Below, piece by piece: positions 11,061 to 44,199 of a stretch of 58,773 nt of DNA. The notes under the pieces are model-generated. The model was not told where the DNA came from, did not search any database, and worked only from the letters and a program-made list of their open reading frames with translations. The position numbers were made by a program, and so were the translations under genes. The first letter of the stretch is position 1. Each line of letters starts with the position of its first letter. The DNA is from Armatimonadota bacterium (lineage in GTDB: Bacteria; Armatimonadota; Zipacnadia; UBA1398; JAKPQA01), in the NCBI GenBank assembly GCA_029547025.1, contig JAKPQA010000081.1, forward strand, positions 1 through 58,773, written 5' to 3'.

Positions 11061-12560
11061 CTACAAGGCCTTGTCAGCCGCTGCCGAGACGCGCACATAC
11101 CGGGCATACGCCTCGTCCCATGGTTCGCGTGGACCGGGCTCGTACGTCAGGACGTCGAAGGACCGCCGCACCATCTCGCGGCCCTCCTCGAGCGATCCCA
11201 CGTACCCCAAAGCCATGGCCTGCATGATGGCGTTGCCGATGGCCGTGGCCTCGACGGGGCCGGCGACGACCGGCCGGCCGGTGGCGTCGGCGGTGAACTG
11301 GCACAGCAACGCATTCTGGCAGCCGCCGCCCACAATGTGGATGGTGTCCAGCGGGTGACCGCTGATCTCCTCGAGCTTCTCCAATACCCACCGATACTTG
11401 AGGGCGAGGCTCTCGAGCGCACAGCGGACCAACGCCCCCTTGGTCTCCGGCGGGTCCTGGCCGGTTCGGCCGCAGAAGGTCCGGATGGCCGCCGGCATGT
11501 CGCTCGGAGCCAGGAACGCCCCGTCGTCCGGCTCGACGAAGGCCTTGAAAGCTGGCGCCTCTGCGGCCATCTGCGCCAGCTCCGAGTAGCTGTGGGCGTC
11601 TCCCTGGCGCTCCCATGTGCGCCGGCACTCCTGCACCAGCCACAAGCCCATGATGTTCTTCAGGAAGCGGAACGTGTCGCACACGCCGCCCTCATTGGTG
11701 AAGTTGTAGTCGAGTGCGGCGTCCGTGATAATGGGCTCGGGGACCTCGATGCCCATGAGCGACCACGTGCCCGAGCTGATGTAGGCGTAGTGGTGGCCCC
11801 GGGCGGGCACCGCCGCCACCGCCGAGCCTGTATCGTGGCAGGCCGGAGCCACTACGGTCGCTCCTCCGATCCCCGTCTCAATGGCCACGGCGCGCACCAA
11901 CGGCCCCAACCGAGTGCCGGGCGGCACGATGGAGTCCACCAGGAAGTGAGTGGGCAGCCCCAGGCCAGTCAGAAGGTCTCGCGCCCAAGCGCGGGTCCGC
12001 GGGTTGTAGAACTGGGTGGTCGTTGCATTCGTGAACTCGCAGACCGTCTCGCCCGTCAGCCAGTAGTTCAGTACATCGGGCATGGTGAGTAGCTTGTCGG
12101 CGACGTCCAGCAGTGGGGATCGGGTAACACCCATGGAGAAGAGCTGGAAGAGCGTGTTCAGCGGCATGAACTGGATGCCGGTCTGCTCGAATATCTCGCG
12201 CCGTGAAAGACGTTGGCACGCGGCTTCCACCATGCCCTCGGTGCGATGGTCGCGGTAGTGATAGGGGTTCCCCAGGAGATTCCCGTCTCGATCCAGCAGG
12301 CCGAAGTCGACGCCCCAGGTGTCCACACCCAGACCCATGACCGGGCCATCGGCCTCGGCCGAGCAGAGGGCTAGTCCCCGCTTGACTTCGTCATAGAGCC
12401 GCAGCACGTCCCAGTGCAGATGGTTCAGCACGCGCACCGGACCATTCGGGAACCGGTGCACCGGTTTCAGCGTCAATCGGCCGGAGTCGATGGTCGCGAG
12501 GATGGCGCGGCCGCTCTCGGCTCCCAGATCCAGCGCAACCAGATGGATGGCCTCGGGCAT
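11061..12560 (-). CDS. rhaB: Rhamnulokinase (FGGY family)
   Basis: The 499-residue FGGY kinase carries the RhaB hallmarks: LVALDLGAESGRAI at the N terminus (phosphate-1 loop), HRFPNGPVRV, GVDTWGVDFGLLDRDGNLL, PYHYRDHRTEGM and the C-terminal ATP-site segment IHIVGGGCQNALLCQ. Rhamnulokinase phosphorylates L-rhamnulose at O-1 in L-rhamnose breakdown. The length matches the family, and the ATG has GGAGGGGG at 7 nt. No rhamnose isomerase or aldolase lies in the window, so the pathway is completed elsewhere or the kinase serves another ketose. It probably heads a minus-strand operon that includes the secreted barrel protein and the aldo/keto reductase. Confidence 0.9.
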   Translation of the reverse strand: MPEAIHLVALDLGAESGRAILATIDSGRLTLKPVHRFPNGPVRVLNHLHWDVLRLYDEVKRGLALCSAEADGPVMGLGVDTWGVDFGLLDRDGNLLGNPYHYRDHRTEGMVEAACQRLSRREIFEQTGIQFMPLNTLFQLFSMGVTRSPLLDVADKLLTMPDVLNYWLTGETVCEFTNATTTQFYNPRTRAWARDLLTGLGLPTHFLVDSIVPPGTRLGPLVRAVAIETGIGGATVVAPACHDTGSAVAAVPARGHHYAYISSGTWSLMGIEVPEPIITDAALDYNFTNEGGVCDTFRFLKNIMGLWLVQECRRTWERQGDAHSYSELAQMAAEAPAFKAFVEPDDGAFLAPSDMPAAIRTFCGRTGQDPPETKGALVRCALESLALKYRWVLEKLEEISGHPLDTIHIVGGGCQNALLCQFTADATGRPVVAGPVEATAIGNAIMQAMALGYVGSLEEGREMVRRSFDVLTYEPGPREPWDEAYARYVRVSAAADKAL

Positions 12561-13319: not shown

Positions 13320-16300
13320 CTACCTCCCGACCGTGACGCGTACCGCCGCCCGGGCCCGCGCCCCCGCCTCACCAACGGCCTCGAGCTCGATCACATACTG
13401 GCCGGGCGGCAGCGACGAACCCGACAGCCCCTGGCCGGTCCAGCTCAGCGTCTGAGCGCCCGACACCTGCGTCTCACCCCGCAGAGGCTCGGCCACCACA
13501 CGCCCGGCCGCGTTCAGCACCCGAGCGGAGACGGTCGCCGAGGCGGTCAGCGAGTAGGCGACCGCCACCCCGCCGCTGCGGAGCACGTCGGCCCGGGCAG
13601 CGATGATCCGGAGTCCGGCCGTATTCCGCCGGATCGCGACGCGAAACCGGCGCTCCGTCCCGTTCTGCCCCGTCCGGAACGTGTACGCACGGGTGGAGCG
13701 GAGCAGGACGCTCTCGTGGGCGTCGACGTCGGTCAGCACAGCTTCATACTCGCGCGGGAGGCCGCGCAGGTCGCTCCAGGTCAACACGACCGGCCGATTC
13801 GCGGCTGAAGACCGCACCACGGCGTCATAGGCCCACTCGTCTGCGGCCGAAACCTTCTCCCGCATGTCCACGGCATAGCCGCCGGAGGCCTGCGGTGGGA
13901 TCAGGGTGAGACTTAGGTCACTTGATAGCGGGGGCGGCTCGGCGACGCGCAAGTCGCCGGATGCCCCCTGCGGCCGCACGCCCAGCACGTTGAAGCCGTC
14001 CGCCGATGTCCCGCATCGCGCGGACAAGTTGATGGTGAACCCGCCACTCTCGGCTCGGAGCAGCGGCACCGTCGATCGGCTCGACGTCGAGGCGCCCGGC
14101 CTGTGCAGGACCAGTGTCACCGGGCTGTGGGCATAGACGAAGAAGCCCGACCACGGCGCAATCGTCGTCTCCGCACCGGGCACTCTGGGATCCACGAGCA
14201 TGAAGCTCTGGGTCTCCGAGTCGAACGCCCATGCGTATGGCGTGACTGCGGAGGACTGGGCCAGGGGTACTTCGGCCCCGCCTGGCACGCGAACCGTGGT
14301 GGTCGACCAGTCAATGGCCTCCTCAAACGGGTTCCCGGCCATCTGCCAGCCGGCGTCCAGCGCCACCTCGACCTCACGGCCTGATGCCGGCGTTCCCGCC
14401 GCCTGTACCGTGCGTCCCCCCGAACCCACATGGAACCAGTACCCGCGCCCCAGAACCGGCGGCCCGGCCAGGGGGGCGTAGGAGTTCGTGCCAGCATCCC
14501 ACCACGCCGCGTACTGCCGCGTATCGCCGAACAGCTCACCCGCTGTTACGCCACCGGTGCTCACCGGAACAGAGAACAGCGCCCAACCCGCTGCGAACTG
14601 CCTCGAGTAGACGCGCGATGCCGCGAAGTCCTGCTTTGTTGCGCTGGGCCCCACGGTGACTTTCAGTGTGGCCGGCACGAAGGTGTACTCGGGCTTGCTG
14701 GCCGTCAGCGTGTACTCCCCCGCCACCAGCCCGGCGATGGTGTAGGTCCCGTCGGCGCCCGTGATGGCCGTATGGCCGCCGCCCGCGTCGACGGTGACCC
14801 CGGCCACCGGCACACCATGGGCCGTCACCGTCCCGCCAATACTGTAGGTCGCCTGCGTGGCCGTGAAGTCCTGTCCCGTGGCGCTGGGCCCCACGGTGAC
14901 CTTCAGTGTGGCCGGCACGAAGGCATACTCGGGCTTGCTGGCCGTCAGCGTGTACTCCCCGGCCACCAGCCCGGCGATGGTGTAGGTCCCGTCGGCGCCC
15001 GTGATGGCCGTATGGCCGCCGCCCGCGTCGACGGTGACCCCGGCCACCGGCACGCCATGGGCCGTCACCGTCCCGCTAATGCGGTAGCGTGGGTCGCCTG
15101 TGAAGTTCACGTCGGTGACGCTCGGGCCGACGGCTACAGCGGCCGACGGGGGATCGAAGACGAAATCGTCCGATGCCGGCGTCACGTTGTACGTTCCTGC
15201 AGGCAGGCCTGTGATCGTGTAGGCACCGCTCGCCTGAGACACCGCGGTTTGGCCGCCGGCCTCGACGATCACCCCACCCAGGCCGACTCCGCCGGACGAG
15301 ATCGTGCCGGATATCGAATAGGTGACAATGCGGGCACTGAAGTCCTGGCCGGTGGCATCCGGCCCCACGGTGACGTTCAGCCAGGGCGGATCGAACGCGT
15401 GCTCGGCCATGCTGGGTGTCACCCGATGGGTTCCGGCCAGCAAACCGGTGACGGTGTACGTGCCGTCCGGCCCTGTGATCGCCGTGCGGCCCGGGCCGGC
15501 CACGATCTCGACGCCAGGCAGCCCTTGCCCGTTGAGTCGAATGGTGCCCGATATGCTGTACGTGACCAAGTCGGCCTCGAAGTCCACCGCCGTGGCGCTC
15601 GGGCCGAGGAGGACACTGCGCGTTTCCGGCGTGAAGGTGTACTGCGCCTTCGCCGGGGTGACGGTGTAGGTGCCCGCCAGGAGACCCGACAGCGACCATG
15701 TGCCGTTCGATGTTGTAGTGGCCGTCTTGACACCGCCGGCCCCATTGTCGACCGTCACGGTGACGCCGGCCAGTCCCGCCCCGGTGGCTGTGACCCGCCC
15801 CGACATGCTGTACGTCACCAGCGTACCGTTGAAGTCCTCTCCCGAGATGCTGGGGCCCAGGTTCACGGTACTATGCACTGGTGTGAACGTGTACTCGGGC
15901 TTCGTCGGCGTTAGTGTGTAGGTGCCCGCCACGAGGTCCGATACGATGTACTTGCCATCTGCCCCGGTGGTCGCCGTCCCAACATGACCTGCCCCGTCAT
16001 CGGCCGTGAGCACGACCCCACTCAGGGCTTTGCCGGCGCTCGTGACGGTGCCGCGGATGGTGTACGTGACTACCGTCGCCGCGAAGTCCTGCCCGGCGAC
16101 ATCCGGACCGACGGTCACCTCGAGTGCCCCGGGAGCAAACGTGTACTCTGCCTTGCTCGGAGTCAACGTATAGGTGCCCGCCACGAGACCTGAGAGCGAG
16201 TAGGTGCCGTCCGCTGCCGTCGTTGCCGCGCGGCCGCCCCCCGCGTCGATCACCACACCCGCCAGCGGGTCCGCGCCGACTCTCACGGTCCCCGACACAA

Positions 16301-17972
16301 CGTATGTGTTGCGGGTGCCAGCGAAGTCCTTGCCCGTGGCATCCGGCCCGATGGTCACGAGCATGCTGGACGGGCTGAAGGTGTACTCGACCTTGTGCGG
16401 CGTCACCACGTAGGCGCCTGGCGGAAGGTCCGCAATGATGAATGTGCCATCGGCAGCCGTCGTGGCGCCCCCAACGTGGCCCGCCCCGTCATCTGCGGTG
16501 AGGCTCACGCCCTCCAGCCCCACCCCCCCGGCCGTCACGGTGCCCGTGATGGAGTAGACAGCCCCCACCGCGCTGGCCATGTTCAGTCGGCCAGCCCCCA
16601 GCGACCGATCGGAGATCGCGTCGCTCGTCCCGCACAGCAGGTCTCGGACCTCTCTGTTGGACAGGTGGCCGTGCCGAGTCATCACGAGCGCCCCAGCCCC
16701 GGCCGCAATGGGCGACGAGAAAGACGTGCCGCTGGCCGTCGCGGTCGCATTGCCAGGTCCTGGAACATAGCCGGTGGTGAGCACCGACTGGCCCGGAGCC
16801 GACAGGTCCACCAGGCCGCTCCCCGCCGTTGCGTAGTTGGAGAACGAGGCTCTCGTGTCCGACGAGTTCGTCGCGGCCACTCCGAGTACCCAGTTCGCGG
16901 GTCCGTCGTTGCAGACGGGACTGCGCGGTGACGACGACAGATCGACCCCGTCATTCCCCGCTGCGGCCACGATGAGGATGCCCGCATTGTAGGCGGCGGC
17001 GATGGAGGTATCAAAGGCCGATGTGTAGTCTCCTCCGAGGCTCATGTTGATGATCCGGAAGCCCGTGGCCGTGGCATACTCGATCCCGGCGATGACGTCG
17101 CTGGCGACGCCCTTCCCGTCGGAGCCCAGCGCTCGAATCGAGCCCACGCGCGCCCGCCAGCACGTGCCCGTAACACCCGTCGCGTTGTTGCCGACGGCGG
17201 CGATGCAGCCCATCACGCAGGTTCCGTGCCCGGTTCCGCCGTCGACGTCCCATGGGGTGTTGTCGTCGTCGATGAAGTCCCAGCCGTGGACGTCATCCAC
17301 ATAGCCGTTGCCGTCGTCGTCGATGCCGTTACCGGCAACCTCGCCGGCGTTGATCCATCGGTTGCCGTTGAGGTCGGGATGATCGGGGTCTACGCCACTG
17401 TCGATTATGGCGATGGGAACAGCGCTCACTGTCCCATAGTCCCATGCGGCCGGTGCGTCGATCCGGGGCAACCACCACTGGCTCGGATAGCTCGGGTCGT
17501 TCGGTGTCGCGGTACCGCGCAGGACCGAGTTTGGGCAGGCCAGGGCGACCTCGGGCATACGCTGGTAGAGCTGGATGGCGGCCTCGACCGTCATGCCTGG
17601 TGGAGTCCGGACGGCCTGAATGCGGCACCGCCGCACCTCCTGGAGGACTGCAGAGCCCAAAGCTCGGTGGCGGTCCATGAGCGATGCGCGAGCCCCGGAA
17701 CGGAAGACGATGAGGATCTCATTCTCGGCGCACTCGACGCGGCGCCCGGTCTCCGGGGACACAGCAAACGTGGTCCGGAGTGGCAGTGCCGCCTGGCATG
17801 CATCTTGCCCGGACATGGCGGCCAAGAGGCACCCTGCGAGGGCCACAGCGAGCCTTGCTTGGGCGTGGCCTGCGGCCGAGCCGGGGCGTATGGGGGGCGT
17901 CCGGCTGCCCGGCCGGGGCGAGGACTCCGGCTGCATCCCGCCGGGCGTGTGGAGTACCTCAGGCGCGCTCAT
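13320..17972 (-). CDS. Large exported subtilisin-like (S8) protease with eight Ig-like repeats
   Basis: From ATG 17972 the protein has 1550 residues. Order: a signal segment at about 40-62 after a basic leader; a propeptide-like stretch to about 160; an S8 catalytic domain with Asp191 (AIIDSGVDPDHPD), His249 (GTGHGTCVMG) and Ser417 (ASGTSFSSP), plus an Asp-rich DDDGNGYVDD calcium-type loop at 218-227; eight repeats of about 80 residues (about 472-1112) of the form TYSISGTVT...GADGTYTIAGLVAGTYTLTP...VTVGPSATGQDF; then a beta-rich region and a C-terminal part resembling FlgD-type or secretion-sorting domains (SLPPGQYVIELEAVGE). The protease is presumably cell-surface or secreted. The frame stays open to 18224, but GGGGGGA next to the 17972 ATG and the signal sequence favour that start. 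Confidence 0.85.
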   Translation of the reverse strand: MSAPEVLHTPGGMQPESSPRPGSRTPPIRPGSAAGHAQARLAVALAGCLLAAMSGQDACQAALPLRTTFAVSPETGRRVECAENEILIVFRSGARASLMDRHRALGSAVLQEVRRCRIQAVRTPPGMTVEAAIQLYQRMPEVALACPNSVLRGTATPNDPSYPSQWWLPRIDAPAAWDYGTVSAVPIAIIDSGVDPDHPDLNGNRWINAGEVAGNGIDDDGNGYVDDVHGWDFIDDDNTPWDVDGGTGHGTCVMGCIAAVGNNATGVTGTCWRARVGSIRALGSDGKGVASDVIAGIEYATATGFRIINMSLGGDYTSAFDTSIAAAYNAGILIVAAAGNDGVDLSSSPRSPVCNDGPANWVLGVAATNSSDTRASFSNYATAGSGLVDLSAPGQSVLTTGYVPGPGNATATASGTSFSSPIAAGAGALVMTRHGHLSNREVRDLLCGTSDAISDRSLGAGRLNMASAVGAVYSITGTVTAGGVGLEGVSLTADDGAGHVGGATTAADGTFIIADLPPGAYVVTPHKVEYTFSPSSMLVTIGPDATGKDFAGTRNTYVVSGTVRVGADPLAGVVIDAGGGRAATTAADGTYSLSGLVAGTYTLTPSKAEYTFAPGALEVTVGPDVAGQDFAATVVTYTIRGTVTSAGKALSGVVLTADDGAGHVGTATTGADGKYIVSDLVAGTYTLTPTKPEYTFTPVHSTVNLGPSISGEDFNGTLVTYSMSGRVTATGAGLAGVTVTVDNGAGGVKTATTTSNGTWSLSGLLAGTYTVTPAKAQYTFTPETRSVLLGPSATAVDFEADLVTYSISGTIRLNGQGLPGVEIVAGPGRTAITGPDGTYTVTGLLAGTHRVTPSMAEHAFDPPWLNVTVGPDATGQDFSARIVTYSISGTISSGGVGLGGVIVEAGGQTAVSQASGAYTITGLPAGTYNVTPASDDFVFDPPSAAVAVGPSVTDVNFTGDPRYRISGTVTAHGVPVAGVTVDAGGGHTAITGADGTYTIAGLVAGEYTLTASKPEYAFVPATLKVTVGPSATGQDFTATQATYSIGGTVTAHGVPVAGVTVDAGGGHTAITGADGTYTIAGLVAGEYTLTASKPEYTFVPATLKVTVGPSATKQDFAASRVYSRQFAAGWALFSVPVSTGGVTAGELFGDTRQYAAWWDAGTNSYAPLAGPPVLGRGYWFHVGSGGRTVQAAGTPASGREVEVALDAGWQMAGNPFEEAIDWSTTTVRVPGGAEVPLAQSSAVTPYAWAFDSETQSFMLVDPRVPGAETTIAPWSGFFVYAHSPVTLVLHRPGASTSSRSTVPLLRAESGGFTINLSARCGTSADGFNVLGVRPQGASGDLRVAEPPPLSSDLSLTLIPPQASGGYAVDMREKVSAADEWAYDAVVRSSAANRPVVLTWSDLRGLPREYEAVLTDVDAHESVLLRSTRAYTFRTGQNGTERRFRVAIRRNTAGLRIIAARADVLRSGGVAVAYSLTASATVSARVLNAAGRVVAEPLRGETQVSGAQTLSWTGQGLSGSSLPPGQYVIELEAVGEAGARARAAVRVTVGR
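14626..15085 (-). repeat. 240-bp near-identical tandem duplication inside the subtilase gene
   Basis: Bases 14626-14845 and 14866-15085 are almost identical, with an exact 240-base period and only scattered differences. They encode repeats 7 and 8 of the subtilase. The other six repeats are diverged at the DNA level, so this pair is a recent duplication or has been homogenised by recombination. Confidence 0.9.
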
Positions 17973-18028
17973 CTTCCCCCCACCACACTGCACCGCGTCG
18001 TGCGCGTTACAAGAACCCATATATGATG

Positions 18029-19072
18029 TTACGTTCGCCAGACCATGCACGCAAGCAAGACGGCCCAAGGGCCGATCGGTGCTACGCCTCCGCGCTCTCC
18101 TCTGCGTAGGTCCAGCACGACCTCGGGCCCTCGTCCTTCCGGTGCCCGCAGGAGGAGCATCGCGGGGTCCGTGTGCGCCACCGTGCCCATAGCCAGGACG
18201 TATCGCGCGCGCCCGGCCGCCCACTCACCATGGGACTCCAGGCCCGTCCCAGGGCCCTCGAAGAAGTGCACGAGAGCCCACACCCCTCAAGCTCGTCTGG
18301 GCTTGTGCTGGCAGTATCCATGCTCATTGCCATGGCCGGAGTGCCCGCATCGCGCGATCCCAGGCCTTCCGCCGAGCTTCCGCTCCGGTGCCCCAGTACA
18401 CGGCCTCGGCGAGGATGACTGCGTAGCGCCGCGCTGCGTCGCGACGCATCTCCAACAGCCCTCGATGTAGTTCATCGGCTGGGTTGACGTTGCACTGTAT
18501 GGCGTACCGCCCGGACTCCGGGTGCCCGGCGAACTCAGGGAGTGACAGCCCGTCGGTCTTGTGAACGGCGATGGGGTGATGCCGGTCGTCCGTCTCGCGG
18601 ATCACTGCGGCGAGGTCCCGTACGCCAGCGGCACTGAGCGCCTCGGCGTACTCCTCGGCGACTCACCAGATCAGGGGTGTGTGGTGCTTGGGCTGGCCGA
18701 ACCCCGCACGGATGAACGCGCGCTCGAGCCCCAGTCCGTGGGCCACACCAGAGTGCTGTCGCCCTACAAGAACACGAAGGCCCCGACCCCCGCCCAGTCT
18801 ATCGCCGAGAGCCACTGGTCCCACTGGTCCAGGGTCTGAGGGCCCACTCATTGGGCCGGGTCGTGGTCCACGACTGGGGTATCCGCGCCGCTACCATCCC
18901 CCTGTGGGATCGGACCACGGTCATGGAGACCGGATGGGCGTCCTTCTCCTGCTGCTGCTGGCGGACCAGCCCGGGTTGGTCGCCGGGACGGGTCCCGTCA
19001 GGCCCCAGTTTGTCGCGACAAGAGGAGCCCTCGGGATCGCCCGGCTCGCACAGCGGCGCCGGACCACCGACG
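18029..19072 (-). pseudogene. Degenerate exported hydrolase-like gene with C-terminal collagen-binding-like domain
   Basis: Fragments of one protein lie in order in changing minus-strand frames. Upstream come LDQWDQWLSAIDWAGVGAFV and then a TAG; next, in another frame, LGLERAFIRAGFGQPKHHTP ending in a TGA; then in the same frame VAEEYAEALSAAGVRDLAAV, HHPIAVHKTDGLSLPEFAGH and WGTGAEARRKAWDRAM up to 18324; then from 18283, in a third frame, LVHFFEGPGTGLESHGEWAA and ARYVLAMGTV. The pattern resembles barrel hydrolases that end in a putative collagen-binding domain; that comparison is from memory and moderate. At least two frameshifts and two stops make a functional product unlikely. The 5' limit is uncertain. 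The 17973-18028 stretch next to it contains an AT-rich patch upstream of the subtilase start. Confidence 0.6.
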
Positions 19073-35767: not shown

Positions 35768-37972
35768 CTACTGCACTCCCGACGCCCCGAACGCCAGCTC
35801 GACCCTGCGGCTGCGCCACTCGCTCCCGGTGGTCCCATCGACCACCTGGACATATAGCCCATATGTCCCGTCGGCGTGCAGCGCCAGATCGTCCGGCGCG
35901 CCGGTGGTCAGGCGCCGGAGCAGCACCACATACCACCACCCGTCCGCGTAGGCCGACGCGGCACGGACACTCGCCCGACTGCCACTCGGATCCAAACAGA
36001 TGACCCCGGGAACTGAAGGAATTACTGAAATATAGGCAATCACATCCTCTGGCGAGACCGCCGTCAGAGCTTGGGCGTGAGCGGCCTCCTCCAGCTTGCT
36101 CCTCAGGGCTTGCTGAGACCCGCCTTCACGGACCGCCAGCCCCGTCGTGACGCCCGCCTGATCCGCCGGCGCGTCGGGACCGTGGCAGCGGATACATCGC
36201 TGGTGGAATGTCTCGCGCCCCCCTAGTGGGTTACCGCGCAGCTCCGCCACGCTCTGGTCCGAGAGAACCCCTTCCCCGTAACGGCCCACACGCCCATCAG
36301 CCACAAAGGCCGGACCCGTTGCTTCCTTATTCAGATTCGCCACATACGGTGGACGTCCCACATCGCCGCGGAGGCCCTCCGGGCCGATGTACAGGTCGTC
36401 GGCGCAACGTTGGCGGTCGGTGGCACCGGCCCGCCAGTGCCAAACATCCCCCTGTCCCCACTCGATCCTGGATGACAGCCCGACCATAGCCGGAGACCTT
36501 GTGAACAGGTCGGCGCCAGTGCGTATGTCTTGGTCCCACACCACAAAGAAGCGGTCATCGCCGCCCGCGAGGTGGAAGCCAGACTCCCCCAGCTCCCATC
36601 GCGGCGGCTCGCGATCTTCCGTTCCATCGCGGATCGCCAGCAGCAGGCAGAGCGCGCTCTCTGTGTATGCCGCGGCTATGCGGGCTTGGAGCTCCGGCGC
36701 GCCGGCATCACCGGCCTCGAAGGGGATCCTTCGGCACCCAATGGCGCGCCACGCCGCGTCCGTGGGCTCGGTGGGGGCCCTGGCCTGCCATACGGCCACC
36801 ACCGGGCCCTCGCCAGGCGCCACGCTGCCCGTCTCCGGGCGCACCGCAGCCGGGGCGACGCTCTCCGGCGTTGCCGACGGTTCGCTGGCTTCGCCCGAAA
36901 GCGCCCGAAGCAGCTCCGTCACCTCGGGCGCGTCCGGCCAGATCTCGAAGGCCTTCAGCACGAACTCCCGCGCGCGCCGCCGGTCGTCGAAGCTGAGCTC
37001 GCGCCGCGCGCGTGCGACCAGGTCATCCAGGTGGGCCCGCTTCACGTTCGCCAGCCAAATGACCGCCGTGTTGTCCTCCGGGTACTGCTCCGCCAAAGCC
37101 GAGAAAGTCGCGGCGGCATCCTCAAACTGCCGATCCGTCAGTTGCTGGACCCCCTTGCCATACTCGGCCGAGTAGGCGCGGTACCGATCGCCGTCGGGGC
37201 CGTAGGGGCCAAAGGCGTGGAAGAACACCTGCTCCATGGTGGTCGCGAAGACCACCCGAACCCTCGGAAAAGCCTTCCGGACAACCTCGGCCATGGCTTC
37301 AGGAGTCGTCTTGGCGTTCTCGTAGGGCAGGATCATCGTGCCCGTGTGCGAGCGGATGACGCCATCGATCTTGGTCGCGATGTCGCCCACGCTCTTCACC
37401 AGGCCGTCGCGTGTGACGGCCCCGGTCACCGCCACATCGTCCAGGACTGGCGTATTCGTGAGCACTGAGTAGGCCGCCACCGCAAGCGCCGCGCCCGCCG
37501 AATCGCCAGCCACCACCGAGTCCGCATCCACAAAGTCGATCTCATAGCGCCGGCCGGTCAGCAGGTCGCCCGGCAGTTTGAGCTTGCCCCCGGCCGAAGC
37601 CGCCGCCAGGTACGCGAACGCATCAGTAATCATGCGCTGGCCCACCTCGTCGATGGGCACATTCGTGTGCCAGCGCCATCCCGTGTCCGCCGGATCGACG
37701 GCCTCAGCGCGCACCTCGATCGGGAACACCAGGCCCTCCTCGTAGGTGCCCTCGATGTCGCCCGCCACCGAGAGACCGTTCACCCGCCCGACCGTCGCCG
37801 GTGGGCCCCCATCGGCAGACCACGCCCATGCAAAGACACACAGGGCAGCGACGAGAGCCAGCCCCGCGCGCCCGATCCGGCCCAACGCACCCGGCGAGGT
37901 CCCCCCCGCGGCCTGGGCCTGAGACTCGTTGTGAGGTTGATCGCTCATGCCTCCCAGGTGTTGGACGATCAC
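35768..37972 (-). CDS. Membrane-anchored Lon-type (S16) proteolytic domain fused to heme-binding and CxxCH region
   Basis: The 734-residue protein has one N-terminal membrane segment (about 34-52, GRAGLALVAALCVFAWAW), so most of it should lie outside the cytosol. Residues of about 60-250 match the Lon proteolytic domain without its ATPase: Ser158 in VVAGDSAGAALAVAAYS and Lys201 in VGDIATKIDGVI, spaced 43 residues as in classical Lon. A helical TPR-like region follows (about 265-360). Residues of about 390-540 resemble the heme-binding domain of ethylbenzene-dehydrogenase gamma subunits (DDRFFVVWDQDI, DVWHWRAG). A c-type heme motif CIRCH follows at 593-597. GTG 37972 has AGGAA upstream; ATG 37948 is an alternative. 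The fusion is unusual; its role is unknown. Confidence 0.8.
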   Translation of the reverse strand: MIVQHLGGMSDQPHNESQAQAAGGTSPGALGRIGRAGLALVAALCVFAWAWSADGGPPATVGRVNGLSVAGDIEGTYEEGLVFPIEVRAEAVDPADTGWRWHTNVPIDEVGQRMITDAFAYLAAASAGGKLKLPGDLLTGRRYEIDFVDADSVVAGDSAGAALAVAAYSVLTNTPVLDDVAVTGAVTRDGLVKSVGDIATKIDGVIRSHTGTMILPYENAKTTPEAMAEVVRKAFPRVRVVFATTMEQVFFHAFGPYGPDGDRYRAYSAEYGKGVQQLTDRQFEDAAATFSALAEQYPEDNTAVIWLANVKRAHLDDLVARARRELSFDDRRRAREFVLKAFEIWPDAPEVTELLRALSGEASEPSATPESVAPAAVRPETGSVAPGEGPVVAVWQARAPTEPTDAAWRAIGCRRIPFEAGDAGAPELQARIAAAYTESALCLLLAIRDGTEDREPPRWELGESGFHLAGGDDRFFVVWDQDIRTGADLFTRSPAMVGLSSRIEWGQGDVWHWRAGATDRQRCADDLYIGPEGLRGDVGRPPYVANLNKEATGPAFVADGRVGRYGEGVLSDQSVAELRGNPLGGRETFHQRCIRCHGPDAPADQAGVTTGLAVREGGSQQALRSKLEEAAHAQALTAVSPEDVIAYISVIPSVPGVICLDPSGSRASVRAASAYADGWWYVVLLRRLTTGAPDDLALHADGTYGLYVQVVDGTTGSEWRSRRVELAFGASGVQ

Positions 37973-41052: not shown

Positions 41053-44000
41053 TCAGCCGCCGTCTCGCCCGAGCGCTTCCCGGACTTTGGCCGCCAGTGC
41101 ATCGGCCCTGAATGGCTTCTCGATGAAACACACATCCGGGTTCAGCACACCGTGGTGGGCGATCGTACCGGCCGGGTAGCCCGACATGAATAGCCACCGC
41201 AGACCCGGGTGGATGGCCCGCAAGCGTTGGGCTAGCTCCAGGCCGTTCATCTCCGGCATGATCACATCCGTAATCAGCAACTCAATATCTCCGGTGTGCT
41301 CCTGGGCCAAACGGAGCCCCTCGCTAGGCGTGCCCGCCGCAAGGACCGTGTAGCCCCGGCCCTCGAGCATCGTCTTGACCAGCTCGAGGACCGTCGGCTC
41401 GTCCTCGACCAGCAGAATGGTCTCAGGACCGCCCGAAGCGGGTCCGGCGGCGTCCTCGTCCGCTGATGACCCCACCTCGCCCGGGTGGCGGGGGAGGTAG
41501 ATCCGGAACGTGGTGCCCTGGCCCGGTTCGCTGTCTACATTGATGAACCCCTCGTTCTGCCGGACGATGCCGTAGACGGTGGCCAAGCCAAGGCCGGTTC
41601 CCTCGCCGACGCCCTTCGTCGTGAAGAACGGCTCGAACAGGTGCGAGCGCGCCTCCGCATCGATCCCGCAGCTGTTATCGGTCACCGACAGCAAGACGTA
41701 CTCGCCCGGCGCGAAGCTGCCGATCTCCGACGAGTACGCCTCGCCGGGTGCCATCGTGGCCGTCTCGATGGTCACCTGGCCCGTGCCGCCGATGGCGTCC
41801 CGCGCGTTCACGCACAGGTTCGCCAGCACCTGGTCGATCTGCGACGGGTCGATGTTCACCAGGCACGGGCCCGGGCACGGCACCCAGACCAGGGCGATGT
41901 CCTCCCCGATGAGGCGCCGCAGCATGCTCAGCATGGCCCCAACCGCCTCGTTAAGGTCGATGACCCGGGGCGCCACCGTCTGTTTCCGCGCGAAAGCGAG
42001 CAACTGGCGCGTCAGGTCCGCCGACCGCTCGGCGGCTTTGCGGATCTCGCGCAAGCTCGCCGCGAGCTCTTGAGAAGGGTCGACCTGCTGCAGCGCCAGC
42101 TCGGCATGGCCCAGGATCACACCCAGCATGTTGTTGAAGTCGTGAGCCACACCGCCGGCCAGCCGGCCAACCGACTCCATCTTCTGGGCCTGGACCAACT
42201 GCGAACGGAGCCTCTCCTGTTCCTCCTCAGCACGCCGGCGCTCGGAGATGTCGCGGTCGAAGGCGACCGCGTTGAAGCGCCCGGCGAACGGGATGTAGTT
42301 GCTCGAGACCTCCACCGGGAACACGCGCCCATCCTTGGTGCGGTGCCGCGACTCGAAGCGCATCGTCCCCTCGCGCTCCATCCGCGCGACGTGGTCCGCC
42401 CATTCCTCGCGAGGGAAGTCGGGGTCGATGTCAAACACCGTCAGGCTCAGAAGCTCCTCGGGCGTATAGCCCATCGATGCACAAGCGGCGTCATTCGCGT
42501 ATGTGATCTCACCGTTCTCCCCGACCCACAGGATGCTGTCGGGCGCGTGGTCCATCGCGAACTGCGTTCGTCGCAGCGCCTCTTCGATCCGCTTCCGGTC
42601 GGTGATGTCCTCCATGCACGCCATCAGCGCCGTGACCTGGCCACTCCGGTCGCGCACCGGCGCCGTCGAGAGGCTGACGTGGATCAGCGTGCCGTCCTTT
42701 CGCGGCCGCGCGACCTCCACGCGCGACAGCGTCTCCCCGGCCAGGACGCGATCCATCATCTCGTGGGCCTCGCGCGCCCACTCCTCGTTGCCGTCGCCCA
42801 GATAGGGCAGCGGACGGCCCAGGACTTCGGAGGCCGTCCAACCGAACATGCGCTCGGCGGCCGCATTCCAGCTCCGGACCCGCCGCTCCAAGTCCACACT
42901 GATAATAGCCAGCGGCGACGCATCGATGATGGTGCGCTGCAGCTCCTCACTCTCGCGCAGCGCCGCCTCCAACCGCTTCCGATCCGTCACATCGCGCGCC
43001 GCGGCGTATATGGTTGCCCCGACTGGCGTCGACCGCCACTCGATCCACCGGTACGTTCCATCCTGGCACCGGTACCGGTTCTCAAAGCTCAGCACGTCTT
43101 CCTGAGCGGCGAGCCGCGATACGGCCTCCAGAGTGGCCTCGCGGTCATCCGGGTGGACGAGATCCAGGAACGCACGTCCCTCCAGCTCGGACACCGGGTA
43201 GCCGAGCACGCGCTCCCACTCGGGGTTCAGCCGGATGAACCGGCCGCGGGTGTCGGCAATGCACAGCAGATCGAGGCTTCGGCTGAAGTAGCGCTCCATC
43301 TCCTCGGTCTGCCGGCGGAGCGCCTCCTCCGCCCGCTTGCGGTCCGTGATGTCCTCGAACACCACCGCCATTCTGTTCGGGGCGATCTGGAACGCGTAGA
43401 CTTCGAACGCGCCGCGGATCCGTTCGTCCTCATAGGCGACCTCATCGGTGTGCCAACGCTCACCGTCTCGCGCTACGCGCCGGTAACGGTCGGGTATCCC
43501 GGCCTCGACTAGCGGCGGGAATGCCTCCTCGATGGCCTTGCCCGCAAACTGGGAGCTATCGGCACCGGTCAGTCGGTCGGCGGCGGGATTGCCCGCCTCA
43601 AAGATGAGTCGGCCGGCTTCGTCGAGGCGGTACAGATAGATGCCCATCGGTGACGCCTCAAACAAGGCGCGCCACCGCTCTTCGCTCTCCCTCAGCGCCT
43701 GCTCCGCTCGCCTGCGTTCGGTGATGTCCCGGGCGATCTCCCAGAGGCAGTCGAGGCTACCATCGCCATGGCGCACCGCATAGACCTGCACCTCGACCGG
43801 GAAGACCGTGCCATCCTTGCGGATGTATTCCTTTTCATACACCTTGGAAATGCCGCCATCGAGCTGGCGTTCGCCCAGGATCTCCTGAGTCTCCCACGGG
43901 TGCCAGCGCTCCGGGGTGATGGTCAGAAAAGAGGGGAGAGCCCGCAGCTCCTCGAGGGAGTAGCCCACCATGGCGCAGTAGGCTGGATTGGCGTCCAGAA

Positions 44001-44199
44001 ACCGCCCGTGGGCGTCCAGCACTACGAACCCGTCTCGGCTGCGTGCGAACAGCTCGCGGAAACGCCGCCCGCCTTCGGTCAGCTCGTCGCCCTGCCGTTC
44101 GCGGATCCTGCTGCCGTCGACCTCAGCACCACCCACCGGAGCTACCCCCTTACCGAATCCGCCCGATGGGCCTGTCATAGCACCGGCAGAGCCCACCAT
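41053..44199 (-). CDS. Hybrid sensor histidine kinase with five PAS domains and a C-terminal receiver
   Basis: The 1048-residue protein has no membrane segment, so it senses cytosolic signals. Five PAS/PAC units run from about 44 to 670, each closing with a D(I/V)(T/S)(D/E)R(K/R)R-type linker. A histidine kinase core follows: H-box GVAHDFNNMLGVILGHAELA, N-box VLANLCVNARDAI, G1 DNSCGIDAE and G2 GEGTGLGLATVYGIV. The C-terminal receiver (from about 925) holds ILLVEDEP and LITDVIMPEMNG with the phospho-acceptor Asp and IEKPFRAD with the Lys. ATG 44199 has a GGGGG run upstream. No cognate response regulator or DNA-binding gene is adjacent. Confidence 0.93.
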   Translation of the reverse strand: MVGSAGAMTGPSGGFGKGVAPVGGAEVDGSRIRERQGDELTEGGRRFRELFARSRDGFVVLDAHGRFLDANPAYCAMVGYSLEELRALPSFLTITPERWHPWETQEILGERQLDGGISKVYEKEYIRKDGTVFPVEVQVYAVRHGDGSLDCLWEIARDITERRRAEQALRESEERWRALFEASPMGIYLYRLDEAGRLIFEAGNPAADRLTGADSSQFAGKAIEEAFPPLVEAGIPDRYRRVARDGERWHTDEVAYEDERIRGAFEVYAFQIAPNRMAVVFEDITDRKRAEEALRRQTEEMERYFSRSLDLLCIADTRGRFIRLNPEWERVLGYPVSELEGRAFLDLVHPDDREATLEAVSRLAAQEDVLSFENRYRCQDGTYRWIEWRSTPVGATIYAAARDVTDRKRLEAALRESEELQRTIIDASPLAIISVDLERRVRSWNAAAERMFGWTASEVLGRPLPYLGDGNEEWAREAHEMMDRVLAGETLSRVEVARPRKDGTLIHVSLSTAPVRDRSGQVTALMACMEDITDRKRIEEALRRTQFAMDHAPDSILWVGENGEITYANDAACASMGYTPEELLSLTVFDIDPDFPREEWADHVARMEREGTMRFESRHRTKDGRVFPVEVSSNYIPFAGRFNAVAFDRDISERRRAEEEQERLRSQLVQAQKMESVGRLAGGVAHDFNNMLGVILGHAELALQQVDPSQELAASLREIRKAAERSADLTRQLLAFARKQTVAPRVIDLNEAVGAMLSMLRRLIGEDIALVWVPCPGPCLVNIDPSQIDQVLANLCVNARDAIGGTGQVTIETATMAPGEAYSSEIGSFAPGEYVLLSVTDNSCGIDAEARSHLFEPFFTTKGVGEGTGLGLATVYGIVRQNEGFINVDSEPGQGTTFRIYLPRHPGEVGSSADEDAAGPASGGPETILLVEDEPTVLELVKTMLEGRGYTVLAAGTPSEGLRLAQEHTGDIELLITDVIMPEMNGLELAQRLRAIHPGLRWLFMSGYPAGTIAHHGVLNPDVCFIEKPFRADALAAKVREALGRDGG

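Follow-up and report, generated by a model that had tools for sequence, protein, structure and literature searches.

We analyzed a window of 58,773 nucleotides, that is, the whole stretch of DNA taken from one contig of an Armatimonadota bacterium. An uninterrupted reading frame is present on its reverse strand at 35768-37972, as the initial annotation had claimed, and it comprises 734 codons when counted from GTG 37972. The sequence upstream of ATG 37948 reads CTGGGAGG, and this ATG, with GGGAGG upstream, is probably a better start than the GTG. Residues are numbered here from ATG 37948 and are thus eight lower than those used in the initial annotation. The features of the encoded fusion protein are listed in Table 1.

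Table 1. Features of the fusion gene and its product in the window
Feature	Coordinates	Strand	Evidence
Whole gene	35768..37948	-	ATG start, 726 aa; open frame, RBS-like GGGAGG, high GC3 in both halves
Putative signal peptide, residues 1-42, AWA/W site	37823..37948	-	sequence reading; shorter ones with AxA sites in orthologs
Lon (S16) proteolytic domain, residues 53-250	37199..37792	-	Pfam Lon_C 2.6e-12; AF2; Foldseek
Catalytic Ser150 (Ser158 in the initial annotation)	37499..37501	-	invariant in 10/10
Catalytic Lys193 (Lys201 in the initial annotation)	37370..37372	-	invariant in 10/10
TPR-like helices, residues 253-350	36899..37192	-	weak TPR_14 0.0017 (below cut-off); AF2 helices, pLDDT ~83-94
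EB_dh-type beta-sandwich, first part	36242..36754	-	Pfam EB_dh; DMSO_red_II_gam 3e-5; Foldseek 2ivf_C, 7b04_C
Inserted class-I-like cytochrome c, residues 570-645	36014..36241	-	CxxCH; Cytochrome_CBB3 4.8e-5 in ortholog L006; same insertion in L064, L069
CIRCH heme c attachment motif	36182..36196	-	3/3 orthologs
His624, candidate distal heme ligand replacing Met	36077..36079	-	invariant, 3 orthologs; no Met beyond residue 488
EB_dh-type beta-sandwich, last part	35789..36013	-	Pfam EB_dh positions to 232/236

Full-length orthologs with 32-33% identity were found in both other genomes of the order, namely Armatimonadia bacterium Bin_177 (L025, the same gene as L006) and Armatimonadetes bacterium UBA1398 (L026, the same gene as L007). 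Among the 291 Armatimonadota genomes searched, the whole fusion occurred in three, which are all the genomes of this order in the set. When 84,980 species genomes were scanned by pattern, a procedure that reaches close relatives only and may omit the window's own genome, only the two orthologs and one ordinary Lon were returned; tblastn against a plasmid collection gave no match. In L026, positions 11732-11733 are NN, probably an assembly gap, which causes a frameshift close to the end of the fusion gene and places the remaining EB_dh strands in another frame. The window gene comes from a draft genome of 369 contigs, as would suit two genes joined by assembly or annotation, or a chance CxxCH motif. 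However, the full-length architecture recurs in two other assemblies at ~33% identity, and the gene contains no stop and no N, with coding-type composition across both halves; CxxCH arose in 22 of 20,000 composition shuffles (0.1%). An assembly join was rejected because full-length orthologs exist in other assemblies, and an artefact of either kind can practically be discounted.

The fusion gene lies upstream of gap-pgk-tpi and is divergent from a nitrilase-type gene. A promoter-like site (10/12) precedes gap, between the fusion gene and gap-pgk-tpi, and the gene order differs in the other family; an operon with the downstream genes was therefore rejected. At L026:7887-9908, the fusion gene stands divergent to a TPR-bearing Ser/Thr kinase gene, an arrangement not present in the window, and L006 has an open frame at the equivalent place. 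A CheX-like gene follows the fusion gene in L026, and a downstream SDR gene is common to L025 and L026. Neighbors differ between families, no redox partner gene is shared by the three ortholog loci, and no cytochrome complex is co-located at the fusion locus. An Rfam search of the window returned nothing. Elsewhere in the window, 13320-18224 encodes a subtilase (S8) of 1634 aa in which the protease is followed by at least five CarboxypepD_reg-type beta domains, and 41053-44199 encodes a hybrid histidine kinase with several PAS domains and a receiver.

Lon proteolytic domain, TPR-like helices and predicted export

The Lon_C and EB_dh domains both scored above their curated Pfam cut-offs in one chain, as was expected from the initial annotation. 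For Lon_C, the score was 47.2 bits against a gathering score of 21.1. In the window protein, the match covers the profile from position 108 onward; the profile's first half was matched in ortholog L006 (26-174) and by fold. The NCBIfam LonB and LonA models matched the protease part only, from residue 60 of the longer frame, and no AAA match was found in Pfam, indicating that an AAA+ ATPase module is absent. A PDZ domain was likewise not found in Pfam at E up to 10, and the Lon domain contains no cysteine. The AF2 model reached pLDDT ~85-94 over much of residues 150-250, with parts of the first half of the domain lower. When this model was compared by Foldseek, E. coli Lon proteolytic domains ranked at the top (3wu6, E 4.4e-11, target TM ~0.8). 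As modeled, residues 53-250 are a complete Lon proteolytic fold that matches solved Lon domains.

Alignment with PDB sequences placed the Lon part alongside the Lon domains of E. coli, A. fulgidus, and B. subtilis. The catalytic serine stands in GDSAG, and the Lys follows 43 residues on, so that the proposed Ser/Lys dyad and its spacing correspond to those of E. coli and A. fulgidus Lon. The usual Lon motif before the catalytic Lys is GGxxxK, and the fusions carry GD or AH in place of its GG.

TPR-like helices, which were absent from the initial annotation, sit between the Lon and EB_dh halves. A long low-confidence linker separates the two halves in the full-length AF2 model. At the N-terminus, the hydrophobic stretch had been regarded as one membrane anchor. 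Instead, it ends in AWA/W in the window protein and in ALA/V or ALA/A in the orthologs, as a cleavable signal peptide would, and it looks like such a peptide rather than an anchor. By sequence reading, the signal peptides of the orthologs are short and of typical form, with AxA sites. We infer that the fusion protein is exported.

EB_dh module and inserted cytochrome c

The last 330 residues matched EB_dh by sequence (Pfam E 4.6e-15, 56.7 bits against a cut-off of 33.3). The C-terminal half was not resolved in the full-length AF2 model and, when modeled separately, gave a low-confidence beta-sandwich with a mean pLDDT of 56. EB_dh relatives, which the full alignment misplaced onto the Lon region, were cut for the modeling. 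Foldseek analysis of this low-confidence model returned EbdC (2ivf_C, E 1.1e-6) and NxrC (7b04_C), followed in rank by family 9 carbohydrate-binding modules. Since the latter also match, a sandwich fold by itself is no evidence of heme.

The CIRCH motif is conserved in all three orthologs, as a CxxCH had been reported. It had been placed after the EB_dh domain; rather, a cytochrome c of ~75 residues is inserted within that domain, and L064 and L069, two further exported EB_dh proteins from this phylum, carry the same insertion. The Pfam cytochrome c match was weak in the window protein (0.084) and better in L006. Met and Lys ligate heme b in EbdC (PMC8840923). The EB_dh relatives L063, L065, L071, and L076 of the phylum appear to have these two residues, which stand out, whereas in a sequence alignment without EbdC itself they were absent from the window protein, its orthologs, and the cytochrome-bearing subgroup. 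A heme-b role of the EB_dh part was rejected on this basis, and of the heme-binding domains proposed in the plural, one cytochrome c with CxxCH stands. The second GCxxCH site of the cytochrome-bearing subgroup (L064, L069, and L078) is also lost in the window protein. Because both the heme-b ligands and this additional site are absent, a single heme c is predicted in the fusion protein.

His624 lies at about the position of the Met of L064, in a stretch where alignments are not unique, and bis-His ligation of the heme c may be proposed from these sequences. Cytochrome c assembly proteins were found in all three genomes of the order. The fusion is the only EB_dh protein found in the window genome. 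In the order of the fusion, L069:724-2166 (G001 C45) encodes a lipoprotein-like EB_dh protein with two CxxCH motifs and an inserted cytochrome c, which is likely related to the fused heme module.

Apparently exported Lon-TPR proteins of Armatimonadota and known Lon systems

Seven more Lon-TPR proteins (L008-L012, L059, and L060) were found in three other families of the phylum (f7, f8, and f24). Their N-termini are signal-like, or their starts are truncated. The Lon domain, an FxxAFGxxGP junction, and the first TPR are common to these proteins and the fusions; the C-termini of the seven differ, consisting of TPR arrays and Ig-like or other beta domains, with no heme module. In L010 and L012, GGGSGAA replaces G[DP]SAG as the catalytic serine motif, and both Ser and Lys are retained. 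The dyad is invariant in all ten members of the family (three fusions and seven without heme module), so the conservation on which the initial proposal depended is observed. These ten sequences have a median pairwise identity of 28%, and of their 227 columns 16 are invariant, including Ser150, Thr175, Gly176, and Lys193; invariance at this divergence argues for retained catalysis. In a tree with long branches, the ten sequences were set apart from LonA of the same phylum (support 99/98), and the three fusions clustered together (99/97). The simplest history would be that, in the ancestor of the order, an exported Lon-TPR protein gained its C-terminal module from an EB_dh-cytochrome protein that was likewise exported. 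No description of this Armatimonadota family was found in the literature.

SepM of Streptococcus, which has a PDZ-Lon architecture, and YlbL of Bacillus resemble the fusion in having a Lon domain outside the membrane, no AAA+ module, a Ser/Lys dyad, and an accessory domain on the same chain. However, their accessory domain is a PDZ domain located N-terminal to Lon, with a membrane anchor, whereas the fusion protein has C-terminal TPR and EB_dh/cytochrome c parts and probably a cleaved signal peptide. The ATP-free Lon domain of YlbL acts outside the membrane, with its activity undetected in vitro (PMC6051672), and SepM cleaves the pheromone CSP-21 (PMC11197336). LonC (MtaLonC, TTC1975) is similarly an ATP-independent Lon-type peptidase with LonB-like residues flanking Ser, and MtaLonC degrades unfolded substrates without ATPase activity (PMC3391209). 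In contrast to the fusion protein, which lacks an AAA-like part and is probably exported, LonC bears a large, degenerate AAA-like part at its N-terminus and lacks a transmembrane region. LonA and LonB differ by their AAA+ module. As for the other half, its modeled beta-sandwich is of the EB_dh fold seen in EbdC (2IVF chain C) and NxrC (7B04), and the alternative NxrC of Nitrospina likewise combines EB_dh with heme c sites (PMC3578206). Unlike the EB_dh family, the fusion lacks the heme-b Met/Lys, has no molybdoenzyme partner nearby, and is joined to a peptidase. A survey of Lon architectures, old and of few genomes, listed AAA, Sigma54, Mg-chelatase, DnaB, and PDZ as partners, and neither heme nor TPR (PMC2605481). 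No earlier Lon-heme fusion was found in open-access full texts, a search in which absence is not proof, in agreement with the initial annotation. The ATP-free exported Lon is already known, and its joining to a cytochrome c module appears to be new.

Possible functions of the fusion protein

Our slightly favored reading is an exported Lon-type Ser/Lys peptidase that works independently of ATP and carries an exchangeable C-terminal module, here a monoheme cytochrome c. The protein would form a ring through its Lon domain and, needing no ATP, cut short or unfolded polypeptides in the cell envelope; MtaLonC does so with unfolded substrates, and YlbL/SepM work outside the membrane. The region after it would serve as an exchangeable recognition or regulatory module, which in this order would be a monoheme c protein, possibly bis-His, through which the peptidase would bind redox partners or substrates, or which would signal how oxidized or reduced the envelope is. 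The match of Lon in sequence and fold, the invariant dyad, the two orthologs, the Lon-TPR relatives, and the c maturation proteins favor this exported peptidase, whereas the lost GG, the variable neighbors without a redox partner, and the low confidence of the C-terminal model count against it. Gene context and sequence gave no direct evidence for the redox-controlled proteolysis or maturation role suggested initially.

In another reading, the peptidase would perform quality control or processing of envelope electron-transfer proteins, with the EB_dh/cytochrome part docking to or mimicking partners whose faulty forms the Lon domain removes. The relation of the module to exported multi-heme EB_dh proteins, including the one in an order genome noted above, is consistent with this, but the window genome has no such protein besides the fusion, and a cytochrome complex is not co-located; we regard this role as rather unlikely. 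A protease gated by redox or ligand, in which heme c would turn the Lon domain on or off according to its oxidation or ligation, also appears unlikely. A distal His replacing Met would lower the heme potential or permit ligand exchange, and a candidate for such a His is present; moreover, the heme c motif and the dyad are co-conserved on one chain in all three orthologs. Nevertheless, the gene context is not of sensor type, and the halves are set apart by the low-confidence linker. The disulfide switch of E. coli Lon (oxidized/reduced 3wu3-3wu6) was excluded because the Lon domain has no Cys. It is quite doubtful, specifically, that this is an envelope protease controlled by heme c, its ATP-free Lon ring being gated by a bis-His cytochrome according to the redox or ligand state of the latter. 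Loss of the GG near Lys and the presence of a redox module would also fit an inactive, ring-forming Lon scaffold that displays cytochromes for electron transfer, although such a scaffold would not need the Ser, Lys, and TG motif that are invariant across the family, and we consider it distinctly improbable.

Few architectures are known for Lon domains outside the membrane (PDZ-Lon). The fusion exposes an apparently exported Lon-TPR family of Armatimonadota in which C-terminal modules have been swapped, and its conserved Lon-cytochrome chain would be a first candidate for a Lon peptidase that is directly redox-controlled or targeted by a cytochrome. If true, gating by heme c would link respiratory state directly to proteolysis outside the membrane.
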